This document shows positions 43,317 to 49,576 of a stretch of DNA of 64,000 nucleotides, in pieces (the stretch's first letter is position 1; each line of letters begins with the position of its first letter). The stretch spans positions 248,001-312,000 of the forward strand of contig NZ_LQBN01000002.1 in the NCBI RefSeq assembly GCF_001507535.1, in the 5' to 3' direction. The notes under the pieces were generated by a model. The model worked only from the letters and a program-made list of their open reading frames with translations, was not told the origin of the DNA and did no database searches. The translations under genes and the position numbers were made by a program. The DNA is from Thiomicrospira sp. WB1 (GTDB taxonomy: Bacteria > Pseudomonadota > Gammaproteobacteria > Thiomicrospirales > Thiomicrospiraceae).

Positions 43317-45560
<2,244 letters not shown>

Positions 45561-45643
45561 ACCGTTTTGGCTTGGCGGCGGCAAAAGGTGAGTCGGAGCA
45601 GCGCAACCGAACTGTTAAGCCAGAAACCTGAGGAGCGGTTACC

Positions 45644-47323
45644 ATGCTCTTGATTTTTACCATGATTCTGGTGGTAGTGCTGCTTTCCCGCATTCTGGAA
45701 GAGCGGTCGAACTGGCCCTTTGCGCTGTCGGCCATTACCCTGGCCTATCTGGGAAATCACTTCTTTCATCTGGCCCCGTTGGGCGAAGCCTTTCCGGAAA
45801 TCGTCTACTTGATGCTGCCCATTATTCTGATCCCGGATGTGTTGGGGGTCTCACGCAGCGAGCTTCGCCAGAACCTGGGCAGCATCGTCTATCTGTCGGT
45901 CATTGCCGTGGTGATCGCCATTGCACTGGCCATGGGGCTGACCCATTGGGTCGCGCCTGAATATCATCTGACCCTCGGCATGTTGCTGGCCTTGTTTGCC
46001 CCGTTGATGGCCACGGATGTGGTGTCGGTCTCGTCGATTTTTTCCCGCTTCAAGCTGCCCGAACGCTTGAAACTCTACGCCGAAGGCGAAAGTCTGTTCA
46101 ATGACATCACGGCAATGATTCTGTTCTTTTTTGTGGCCCTGCCCCTGATCGAGGGCAGCGACGTGGTCTGGTCTCAGTTGCAATGGTCATTGGGTTCTCT
46201 GGTACTGGAGTCGATCGGGGTCGGTGTGGTGATTGGGCTGATTGGCTACTATCTGTTTAAGTATTTCTCAGACAGCATCGAGCAGTTTCTGACCATTTAT
46301 CTGATGGCCACGATGGCGTTTCTGGTGGCCGAGCACATGCAGCTCTCCGGCATTTTGGGCGTGGTCGTCACCATTTTGCTGTTCAAATACCTGTTTGACA
46401 AAGAAGGGCACTACAAAAAATTTAACCTGACGGCGTTGTATCAGGCTTTAAACCGGGAAAGTGCACCGGAGAACAGCTTTCGCGCCTATCGCAAAGAAGC
46501 CGCTTATCTGGGCATGTTCGCCAATGGGGTGATCTTTGTGGCCATCGCCAGTATTGTGGAGCTGTCACTATTGTGGCAATACAAGCTGGAAATTCTTTAT
46601 GCCTTTGTCCTGACCACGATGCTGCGAGCGGCGTTGCTTCTGCCGCTGATGGCGGTGAAGCATCATCCCTGGCGTTGGGGCGGTGCACTGACGTTTGCCG
46701 GTATGAAGGGCGGGCTGGCGATTATTATGGTGTTCTCCCTTCCGGCTGACTTCGTACACAAAGAACTGTTCATGGCCGTGGTGGTGGGTGTGGTCATTTT
46801 GTCGATGTTTGTAAACACACTGTTACTCAAAGGCTTTTTATGGTGGAAAGCTTCGGGGTTTGCGCTCGACAAGGCGGCCGAGCACTCGTCCGTCGGCGGC
46901 GAGGTCAGCGAAGCCCGCGAAACACTCAAACAGCTGCTGGAACGGGACACGGTGACCAGCGCCTACAACCCGCTGGTGTTTGAAGATGTGATTGAAAAGG
47001 AGATGGCACGTGCCCAACGCTATCACGAGCCATTTGCGCTGTTGGCATTTGAGCACAGCGATCCCGGGTTTGTCGGAAGGGAGCTGGCACCGCTGTTGCG
47101 CAAGTCCGATTATTTTGGCAAATTGGCACCGTCACGTTATGCGATTCTGGCGACGCATTCAGACATGGATGCTGCATTGATTGTGGCGCAAAAACTCCAC
47201 CAGCGTTTGGAAAAGCTGCCCATTGCGGTGACGGTCTATGCCACCGGGGACACATTATCAATGCTGTACGAAAAGCTCGATCAGGCACTGGCAAGAAACA
47301 ATCCCATTGACGTGGAATTGTAA
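45644..47323 (+). CDS. CPA1 sodium/proton antiporter with a degenerate GGDEF-like tail
   Basis: 559 residues. Residues 1-400 hold about 12 membrane helices of a CPA1/NhaP-type exchanger, with the ion-binding region LFAPLMATDVVSVSSIF near 123 and AEGESLFNDITAMILFFF near 147. After a linker the tail (about 420-555) follows the course of a GGDEF domain: YNPLVFEDVIEKEMARAQRYHEPFALLAFE, then LRKSDYFGKLAPSRYAILATHSDMD. The signature is lost (LAPSRY instead of GGDEF), so it cannot be an active cyclase; it may bind a ligand or regulate the pore. The fusion is unusual. It lies 86 bases downstream of icd. Confidence 0.82.
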   Translation: MLLIFTMILVVVLLSRILEERSNWPFALSAITLAYLGNHFFHLAPLGEAFPEIVYLMLPIILIPDVLGVSRSELRQNLGSIVYLSVIAVVIAIALAMGLTHWVAPEYHLTLGMLLALFAPLMATDVVSVSSIFSRFKLPERLKLYAEGESLFNDITAMILFFFVALPLIEGSDVVWSQLQWSLGSLVLESIGVGVVIGLIGYYLFKYFSDSIEQFLTIYLMATMAFLVAEHMQLSGILGVVVTILLFKYLFDKEGHYKKFNLTALYQALNRESAPENSFRAYRKEAAYLGMFANGVIFVAIASIVELSLLWQYKLEILYAFVLTTMLRAALLLPLMAVKHHPWRWGGALTFAGMKGGLAIIMVFSLPADFVHKELFMAVVVGVVILSMFVNTLLLKGFLWWKASGFALDKAAEHSSVGGEVSEARETLKQLLERDTVTSAYNPLVFEDVIEKEMARAQRYHEPFALLAFEHSDPGFVGRELAPLLRKSDYFGKLAPSRYAILATHSDMDAALIVAQKLHQRLEKLPIAVTVYATGDTLSMLYEKLDQALARNNPIDVEL

Positions 47324-47351: not shown

Positions 47352-48071
47352 TCAATCCTCGATGTCATGGTAGACGTTCTGAACATCGTCGACGTCGTCA
47401 AGCATGCCTTGAAACTTCTCGAAAAGTGCCTGATCGTCTTCGCTCTCAATGCGCTTGGTCATTTTGGGGATGAACTGAATTTCATCCACCTCAAACTCAA
47501 TGCCCTCGATCCCATCCATTAACGCCTGTTTGGCCTTGGCGTATTCGGTGTGCGGTGCAAACACCGAGATATGACCGTCTTCGGATTCGATGTCGCTGAC
47601 ATCCACGTCTGCCATCAGCAGCGTTTCCAATACGGTTTCTTCATCACTGCCCTGGAACACCAGAATGGCACTGTGATCAAACATGTGGCTGACGCTGCCC
47701 GGCGTGCCGATTTTGCATTTGGTTTTGGTAAAACAGTTGCGCACATCGCCAAAGGTTCGGTTTGGGTTGTCGGTCAGGCACTCAATGATCACCATGGCAT
47801 TGCCCGGCCCGAAGCCTTCATAGCGCGCCAGCTCAAAATCTTCGCCACCGCCGCCCTGAGCTTTTTCCAGTGCTTTGTCAATGACATGGCCCGGGACCTG
47901 ATCTTTCTTGGCTCGATCAATCAAACCGCTCAGAGCCAGGTTGCTTTCCAACTCGGTGCCGCCGGATTTGGCGCACACATAGATTTCTCGGCTGTACTTG
48001 CTGTAAACCTTGGCTTTCTGGTCCGAGGTTTTGGCCATGGATTCTTTACGGTTTTGGTATGCGCGTCCCAT
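47352..48071 (-). CDS. yebC: YebC/PmpR-family regulator or translation factor
   Basis: 239 residues. The family signature is clear: [38 protein letters not shown]-type start, then [20 protein letters not shown] near 53 and [28 protein letters not shown] near 84. E. coli YebC (246) is usually next to ruvC, but no ruv gene is seen here; the wording is closer to the YeeN-like paralogue, so the symbol is tentative. Proteins of this family were called transcription regulators, and YebC-type members resolve ribosome stalls at proline stretches. AGGAACA precedes the ATG. Confidence 0.87.
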
Positions 48072-48235: not shown

Positions 48236-49576
48236 ATGGACATACTGGTGGTGGATCCGTCCAAAAGTTATCGTAAATTGGTTCGGGACATTTTATCGAC
48301 TGAAAAAGTGGGCATTGTGGAAACCGAGTCCGGGGCGGAAGCGTTTGAGTATTTAAAAAAAGCGACGCCGGATGCCATCAGCATTGCGCATGAGCTTGGA
48401 GACATTGACAGCTTCAAGTTTTTGAAAAAGATCAACTTAAACACGCGCGTGGCCAATATTCCCAAGTTTTTGTTGACGTCACGTAATACACAATCGTTCA
48501 AGCGCGAAGCCTATGACGCCGGCTTTACTGAAATCTTTATTAAGTCCGATTTTGCGACGCTCAAACGCGCGTTAAAAAGTCTGATGCTGTATGCCACCAC
48601 CCACATTCATGCCCGGGTGCTGTATGTCGAAGACACTCAGAGTACGGCCGATTACACCAGCTACATCATGCAGCAGGCCGGCTGGGAGGTCAGTCATGTC
48701 AAAAGCGGTGAGGCGGCGGCCGCATTGTTGGATTTAAAGCCCACCCACTTTGATCTGGTGGTCACGGATCTGGTGCTGGAGGGCAGTGTCAGTGGCATCG
48801 GCCTGATCAATCTGATCCGTCAATCCGAAGAAGGGTTGCGGGATATTCCCATTCTCGCGGTATCCGGGTGGAATGACTTGCTGCGCCAAGTCTATGTGTT
48901 GAAACACGGGGCCGGTGATTTTATTGCCAAGCCGTTTCATGAAACCGATTTTCTGGCGCGTGCCATTAATCTGATTCATAATCACCGCGAGCTGCTGGAA
49001 GCCAGGGCGGCGCAGAAGGCGCTGTATGAAAAGGCCAATCTGGACAGTGTGACCGGTCTGAACAATCGCCACTACATTGATGAGTTTGCTGAGCGCCTGG
49101 TGCAAAAAGCCACAAGCCGTCATCACTCGGTGGCTGTGGCGGTGATGGATCTTGATTATTTTAAAGCCATCAATGATCAGCAGGGCCATCTGATTGGCGA
49201 TCAGGTGTTGCAGAATGTCGCCCGACTGGTCCGTTCCTACAGCCGCTCAAAAGACGTGATTGCCCGTTATGGCGGGGATGAACTGGTCATGTTGATTGAG
49301 GAGCGCAGCCACACGGAGATCAGTGAACTGTTGGCGCGGTTGACTGAGGAAGTGGCGGAATTGCACCCGGCAGGTGTCGCCGTGACCGTCAGTGTCGGCG
49401 CCGCTTGCCATGACAGTGCGCACATTCCTGCGCTGGTGTCGATGCTGGAAGATGCCGAATCCTATTCCGAAACGGGTCAGGAAGTCACCTACGAGGCACT
49501 TTTTGCTCTCGCTGACAAAGCCCTGTACGAGGCCAAGGCGCAAGGGCGCAATCAAGCTATTGTCAAAACCCTTTGA
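48236..49576 (+). CDS. REC-REC-GGDEF response regulator (diguanylate cyclase)
   Basis: 446 residues. Receiver 1 (1-118) keeps the fold but has no phospho-acceptor: the strand reads PDAISIAHELGDID. Receiver 2 (about 125-247) is complete with D178 in LVVTDLVLEG and a lysine in AKPFHETD. The GGDEF domain (about 268-445) has substrate residues MDLDYFKAINDQQGHLIGD, signature RYGGDEL (346-350) and an RxxD inhibitory site RSKD at 337-340. So phosphorylation of receiver 2 should drive c-di-GMP synthesis with product feedback, while receiver 1 may only mediate pairing. No cognate kinase is adjacent. Confidence 0.88.
   Translation: MDILVVDPSKSYRKLVRDILSTEKVGIVETESGAEAFEYLKKATPDAISIAHELGDIDSFKFLKKINLNTRVANIPKFLLTSRNTQSFKREAYDAGFTEIFIKSDFATLKRALKSLMLYATTHIHARVLYVEDTQSTADYTSYIMQQAGWEVSHVKSGEAAAALLDLKPTHFDLVVTDLVLEGSVSGIGLINLIRQSEEGLRDIPILAVSGWNDLLRQVYVLKHGAGDFIAKPFHETDFLARAINLIHNHRELLEARAAQKALYEKANLDSVTGLNNRHYIDEFAERLVQKATSRHHSVAVAVMDLDYFKAINDQQGHLIGDQVLQNVARLVRSYSRSKDVIARYGGDELVMLIEERSHTEISELLARLTEEVAELHPAGVAVTVSVGAACHDSAHIPALVSMLEDAESYSETGQEVTYEALFALADKALYEAKAQGRNQAIVKTL

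Follow-up and report, generated by a model that had tools for sequence, protein, structure and literature searches.

We identified a CPA1-type Na+/H+ antiporter of Thiomicrospira sp. WB1 that ends in a degenerate GGDEF domain (GGDEF*), in which the catalytic site of a diguanylate cyclase is lost and the residues of the allosteric c-di-GMP site (I-site) are conserved. The best explanation, to which we assign a probability of about 0.5, is that the protein is a c-di-GMP-controlled Na+/H+ exchanger, whose cytoplasmic tail would have turned from a diguanylate cyclase, now dead, into a c-di-GMP receptor. The gene lies in a stretch of 64,000 nucleotides of contig NZ_LQBN01000002.1 that was analysed as a whole (hereafter the window), with the following features in window coordinates:

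45631..45635, + strand: AGGAG, Shine-Dalgarno-like (sequence reading)
45644..47323, + strand: whole gene, 559 aa, CPA1-type Na+/H+ antiporter with GGDEF* tail (ORF, Pfam)
45644..46855, + strand: membrane antiporter domain, residues 1-404 (Pfam, full-length model)
46100..46105, + strand: N153-D154, ND motif of the ion site
46856..46939, + strand: variable linker, residues 405-432
46940..47320, + strand: GGDEF* domain, residues 433-559, ~127 residues (Pfam, AlphaFold2, Foldseek, VIA, family profile)
47009..47011, + strand: R456, by position the putative counterpart of a secondary c-di-GMP contact of PleD
47099..47110, + strand: R486-K-S-D489, I-site RxxD
47126..47137, + strand: A495-P-S-R498, in place of the GGDE of the GGDEF active site (alignments)
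47192..47194, + strand: K517, candidate third I-site contact

The reading frame starts with the ATG at 45644, its stop codon ends at 47323, and the motif GAGGAG sits 9-14 bases 5' of the start. The ortholog in Hydrogenovibrio halophilus is 90% identical over the full length. PF00999 (Na_H_Exchanger) matches residues 34-401 of the whole protein with an E-value of 9.9e-30, and it matches all 28 members of the family described below. The full-length model (pLDDT 78.3) has the fold of SOS1, SLC9C1, PaNhaP and NHE, and VIA aligned it with SOS1 at Z 42.4 (392 residues, 2.7 A) and with PaNhaP at Z 38.7 (387 residues, 3.3 A). N153-D154, which we take to be the ND motif that marks CPA1 proteins, is invariant in 28/28 members and is aligned with the GESLMND of SOS1. 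The protein shares its membrane fold and the GES-L-x-N-D motif with NhaP, SOS1 and NHE, but these have other C-terminal parts. Given that neither of the NCBIfam CPA1 equivalogs that were matched, TIGR00831 (a_cpa1; 78.9 bits against a curated cut-off of 279.6) and TIGR00840, passed its cut-off, the sequence is best placed in the wider CPA1 superfamily, in no named subfamily and outside the TIGR00831 equivalog. By domain assignment, the ion transported would be Na+ in exchange for H+. The linker is variable in the alignment and has pLDDT values below 50 at residues 415-432; the tail that follows it probably lies on the cytoplasmic side.

The original prediction of a sodium/proton antiporter fused to a degenerate GGDEF-like domain agrees with our results. 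Beside the PF00999 match (E 1e-29), PF00990 matches the tail alone with an E-value of 1.7e-6 and 28.3 bits, above the cut-off of 23.8; when searched on the whole protein it covers residues 477-538 (E 1.7e-4) and, at 21.8 bits, falls below that cut-off. TIGR00254 matches the tail at E 8.2e-7, its 28.9 bits being below its own cut-off of 37.4. At an E-value of 0.01, PF00990 is matched by 23/28 family members, and a profile of the 28 family tails retrieves GGDEF domains from the PDB (best E 3.3e-23; PleD E 1.7e-6). The AlphaFold2 model of the tail, for which the input consisted of the 28 family sequences and zero canonical GGDEF sequences, is a compact fold with a pLDDT of 86.2. With this model, the best Foldseek match was a GGDEF structure (E 7.9e-10), and VIA aligned it with 3ign, a GGDEF domain solved with c-di-GMP, at Z 17.9 and 1.7 A over 131 residues; all 50 top rows of both searches are GGDEF-domain proteins. 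The structural comparison thus gave no unrelated fold, and sequence and predicted fold together confirm the tail as a GGDEF domain. Chance or artefact is rejected by the E-values, the predicted fold and the 28 members. Similarity to ordinary CPA1 C-terminal domains, which the original prediction had named as a finding that would speak against it, was not seen either: matches of tail-less CPA1 proteins stop at model positions 372-423, and the tail matches GGDEF.

A survey of other genomes, as had been proposed, indicates that the fusion is a conserved family spanning Gammaproteobacteria and Campylobacterota, not a one-off. Full-length relatives were found in 7/62 genomes of the order, in 4/369 of a spread sample of the class (the own genome, G012, G208 and G225, the last matching as two pieces inside one frame) and in 2/5 genomes of the order of G225. 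The class of G083, presumably within Campylobacterota, has them in 13/397 genomes and the family of G083 in 14/200. In a spread sample of the phylum only the window genome has one (1/299), the other 56 matches ending by model position 423. These genome sets overlap, and 28 distinct members were used, each counted once (dropped as repeats of the gene given in brackets: L006 (L035), L034 (L043), L033/L042 (L044), L031 (L002), L032 (L003) and L001 (the window)).

The original prediction also held that the cyclase activity is lost, and the tail bears this out, with APSR in place of the motif and one helix missing. In the tail model RKSD is followed by two strands, and APSR occupies the turn that joins them; the APSR columns rank 97-104 of 127 in conservation, and GG(D/E)EF is found in 0/28 family members. 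Active cyclases have two helices between beta1 and beta2, whereas the window model has a shortened segment with one helix. The two-helix arrangement of GGDEF domains is also named in the relevant part of PMC7439463. As far as sequence and model tell, neither GG(D/E)EF nor the two helices with substrate residues of an active diguanylate cyclase are present. The tail is predicted not to make c-di-GMP, as it has lost both the GTP-binding segment and the GGDEF motif. Catalytic loss is not equally complete across the family, given that four long-tailed members (L051, L052, L053 and L107) keep D-E-Y at the motif end, one of them as GEDEY. These four might be intermediates in the decay of the active site.

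The allosteric c-di-GMP site, consisting of the RxxD motif and a third basic contact, appears to survive in the same tail. R486-K-S-D489 is aligned with RQSD of 3ign and RDTD of 6et7, with R in 25/28 and D in 28/28 members, and K517 follows R486 by 31 residues, being K in 22, R in 5 and A in 1 of the 28. The third contact is thus K/R in 27/28 and mostly Lys, while the known cases compared have Arg (PelD, Dcsbis) or His (BcsE). R456, which by ungapped count we take to be the position of R313 in PleD, is R in 25/28. The spacing between R486 and K517 is the same 31 residues that separate Arg251 from Arg282 in Dcsbis, as given in PMC4937426. Among the 127 tail columns, D489 is one of six that are invariant, R486 ranks 10th and K517 22nd. 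All three (R, D and K/R) are present in 25/28 members, or in 23/28 when K/R at 456 is also required, although the rows are related and the 25 do not amount to 25 independent events. Three members have lost the I-site Arg, with Ser at its place in L045 and L108 and Gly in L048; L045 is also without the third basic residue. Two of these three form a separate gammaproteobacterial lineage with the longest tails, and the genome that carries L108 (G1252) has the fewest GGDEF domains, 15, among the 24 carriers counted.

In many GGDEF enzymes c-di-GMP inhibits through RxxD, which lies antipodal to the active site, and more than 60% of GGDEF domains carry the motif according to the portion of PMC4937426 that treats it. 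We found it in 18/32 GGDEF domains examined in the own genome (30/48 loci plus the window, 32 distinct motifs counted) and in 26/32 from other fetched loci; 5 and 17 of these, respectively, have R/K at the third position, which was scored by a fixed offset with no gaps. When the family's 25/28 is compared with 18/32, a Fisher test gives p 0.009, and with 44/64 it gives p 0.04, relatedness being ignored in both. Judging from these sequences, retention of RxxD is not rare in itself, and it may simply be inherited because the motif is common in ordinary GGDEF domains; the point would rather be its retention while the rest of the enzyme was dismantled. The I-site (R486-x-x-D489, K517) was absent from the original prediction, which had suggested nucleotide-sensing control of sodium or pH balance. 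That suggestion stands as a prediction for both binding and transport response, and the kept RxxD and K517 now point to c-di-GMP, not GTP.

The same residues could also be kept for folding or by inheritance, in a tail that acts as a ligand-free structural module dimerising or stabilising the antiporter. We regard this as the strongest rival, if an unlikely one. Consistent with it, the tail model is compact, the invariant tail columns lie mostly outside the I-site (Y441, R459, G492, D536, K544), and D occupies the RxxD place in 24/32 own-genome GGDEF domains, 6 of which are without R. However, conservation of R486 and K517 is well above average across a family in which tail identity to the window falls to 22%, and the excess of GGDEF genes around the antiporter genes, to which we turn now, also speaks against it. 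In the window, the gene has these neighbours:

43320..45557, + strand: monomeric isocitrate dehydrogenase (PF03971), upstream after an 86 bp gap, outside the system
47352..48071, - strand: YebC/TACO1-type gene (PF01709, PF20772), between the antiporter and GGDEF genes, outside the system
48236..49576, + strand: likely diguanylate cyclase of response-regulator-GGDEF type, RYGGDEL intact and RxxD present (ORF list, Pfam, GGDEF profile)

The response-regulator-GGDEF gene starts ~0.9 kb downstream of the antiporter on the same strand, with the YebC-type gene between them on the opposite strand. Between 43000 and 50500 no known RNA family was found at gathering score; scans for promoters (4 candidate sites, where shuffled sequence gave 1.9, sd 1.4) and for terminators (4 candidate sites, where shuffled sequence gave 4.0) were not used.

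Across the family, a GGDEF gene other than the antiporter lies within ~5 kb in 12/24 loci, compared to 4.5 expected from genome density (p 0.0004), and in 7/17 compared to 3.0 expected when syntenic loci are merged (p 0.018); the other 12/24 loci have no GGDEF gene nearby. Loci of tail-less CPA1 genes have one in 2/20 (2.3 expected), a figure that checks the method and is not a density-matched control. GGDEF genes were sought with a profile built from the fetched loci; L031, L032 and L034 stand for L002, L003 and L043, and L005, L044, L045 and L103, on contigs of 3-4.5 kb, were left out. Expected counts use partly rounded genome sizes and a single length for all comparison loci, three of which are shorter, and the GGDEF counts for G761 and G072 are lower bounds. 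Counts of GGDEF domains in the 24 carrier genomes range from 15 to 65, the count for G761 being a lower bound (65 of 118 candidates scored). The window genome holds 48 at E 1e-5 in 2.28 Mb, which looks like a dense c-di-GMP network for a small genome. Cyclase number was not used as support, considering that the difference in the median number of GGDEF domains (47.5 in carriers, 17.5 in comparison genomes) is confounded by lineage.

No operon partner is conserved across the family. Immediate adjacency of a GGDEF gene is seen in 3/24 loci, too few to test. In L114 (L114:5095-10226) an apparent operon on one strand consists of REC-GGDEF-EAL, ODP-GGDEF and the antiporter, with gaps under ~90 bp, and in L109 a PAS-GGDEF-EAL gene directly precedes the antiporter in an apparent operon with a gap of ~50 bp. 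The third case is L123 (L123:3122-6942), where a phosphonate-binding-protein-GGDEF gene converges on the antiporter gene and the stop codons overlap. The ODP protein of L114 joins an ODP-type metallo-beta-lactamase to a GGDEF domain. Some proteins use their ODP domains as sensors of oxygen or NO, and if this one does, redox sensing would be tied to the antiporter. Four related genomes (L116, L117, L118 and L127) share a small block of two genes (clusters c7 and c8) after the antiporter, and on its far side each encodes a 387-aa GGEEF protein that has no RxxD.

Such arrangements might alternatively mean that the tail serves as a docking site for complete diguanylate cyclases or GGDEF-EAL proteins through GGDEF-GGDEF contacts, and that the antiporter is their local partner or regulator, not a receptor. 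The operon-like pairing in L109 and L114 would fit, as would the convergent cyclase gene of L123, whose stop codon overlaps that of the antiporter gene, but a nearby GGDEF gene is missing from half of the loci and docking requires no I-site, which makes this explanation improbable in our estimation.

The family tree, rooted at its midpoint and with long branches for L056 and L058, recovers all members as a single supported group (100/99) that is separate from 8 tail-less CPA1 rows; the same genus and the class of G083 also contain tail-less CPA1 relatives. Gammaproteobacterial rows are split into sets of 8 and 2, and both sets adjoin Campylobacterota rows, which suggests transfer between the two groups. 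Spread on plasmids is rejected, as the only plasmid record at E 1e-20, in Sulfurovum, matches over residues 8-402 only. The 15 short-tailed members (146-155 aa in the tail alignment; 8 Gammaproteobacteria and 7 Campylobacterota) form one supported set. The 13 longer-tailed members (171-184 aa) are also without GG(D/E)EF, and we infer that the motif was lost first and the substrate segment deleted afterwards.

The tail might instead bind another nucleotide (GTP, ATP or ppGpp) in what is left of the catalytic pocket; that long-tailed members keep more of the segment from beta1 to RxxD, and four of them D-E-Y, would fit. Other ligands do occur among degenerate GGDEF domains; that of GdpP reportedly binds ATP. 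Nonetheless, the window protein has a shorter segment and the motif positions show some of the lowest conservation, and we give this possibility very little weight. As for a functionless, decaying relic, the strong shortening and motif loss are what one would expect, but the tail is kept in 28 members with a conserved C-terminal strand and has a dN/dS of 0.029-0.178 in 8 close pairs, so that we practically dismiss it. The membrane domain has 0.025-0.113 in the same pairs, some dS values being near saturation, and the tail is slightly higher in 6/8; the tail is thus maintained under purifying selection.

A c-di-GMP receptor derived from a dead cyclase has counterparts in PelD and BcsE. Like the tail, they have lost alpha1 and the substrate loop (P-loop), have a diverged motif and keep RxxD (relevant parts of PMC7439463 and PMC7112168), yet they bind c-di-GMP almost like active cyclases, as described in PMC7439463. 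Their third contact lies 30-35 residues after the Arg, a distance that K517, as a candidate, would match. The sites given are R367/D370/R402 and R363/D366/R395 for PelD (PMC7112168), R415/D418/H445 for BcsE (PMC7439463) and R251/D254/R282 for Dcsbis (PMC4937426). For Bacillus cereus PelD, PMC7112168 reports a KD of 103 nM and, upon changing R363, D366 or R395 to Ala, no detected binding. The window tail has the same combination of a GGDEF fold with the motif lost and RxxD kept (RKSD). The difference is that PelD and BcsE control exopolysaccharide secretion, whereas the window domain ends an ion antiporter. It would represent a known receptor type on a new output, new in that we found no precedent for a CPA1-GGDEF fusion or for c-di-GMP acting on an antiporter in the open-access literature, by titles among the matches listed. 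A link between c-di-GMP and salt in Halomonas was rejected as a precedent, the relevant part of PMC12421958 concerning a cyclase and a regulator and no antiporter.

How might such a receptor act on the transporter? c-di-GMP would bind the I-site of the tail (R486, D489, K517). Given that CPA1 antiporters are dimers, it could tie or untie the two tails of a dimer and thereby change their contact. BcsE crystals have one c-di-GMP between two protomers, according to PMC7439463. The altered contact would then switch the antiporter from rest to activity or the reverse, so that c-di-GMP might either open or close it, and cytoplasmic Na+ and pH would be tuned to motile or attached life. The voltage- and cAMP-gated sperm exchanger SLC9C1 is likewise a Na+/H+ exchanger with a cyclic-nucleotide receptor domain, and its authors propose that cAMP disrupts a cytosolic dimer interface (relevant part of PMC10620091); this mechanism serves as an analogy only. 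In the structural comparison of the full-length model, SLC9C1 ranks with the best matches, owing chiefly to its transporter core.

We would thus tentatively, and with somewhat less confidence than in the receptor itself, regard these proteins as the first Na+/H+ exchanger family to be gated by c-di-GMP, a bacterial parallel to the sperm exchanger with its cAMP gating, and one through which the switch between motile and attached life sets Na+ and pH at the transporter in sulfur-oxidising bacteria. c-di-GMP is mainly known for the control of motility, matrix, secretion and transcription. If it acted directly on an ion antiporter, it would be tied to membrane energetics and pH, and the family would offer a small single-chain test system for a soluble dinucleotide receptor gating a secondary transporter.

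Other transporters are linked to cyclic dinucleotides in different ways. CpaA of Staphylococcus aureus, presumably an antiporter with c-di-AMP as its ligand, is also controlled by a cyclic dinucleotide, but it has an RCK domain and c-di-AMP where the window protein has GGDEF* and predicted c-di-GMP. The RCK domain of CpaA is listed as regulating ion transport in the part of PMC10519070 that covers it. An ammonium transporter (PDB 8qj3, 8qj4, 8qpf), found by the tail profile at E 3.6e-7 over residues 456-620, is also a membrane transporter with a C-terminal GGDEF domain. We take this protein to be an ammonium-sensing active cyclase, in which the tail would be the output, whereas the antiporter tail is without a catalytic site and the transporter fold differs. 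GGDEF tails are therefore joined to at least two unrelated transporter folds, of which that of the ammonium transporter has solved structures.
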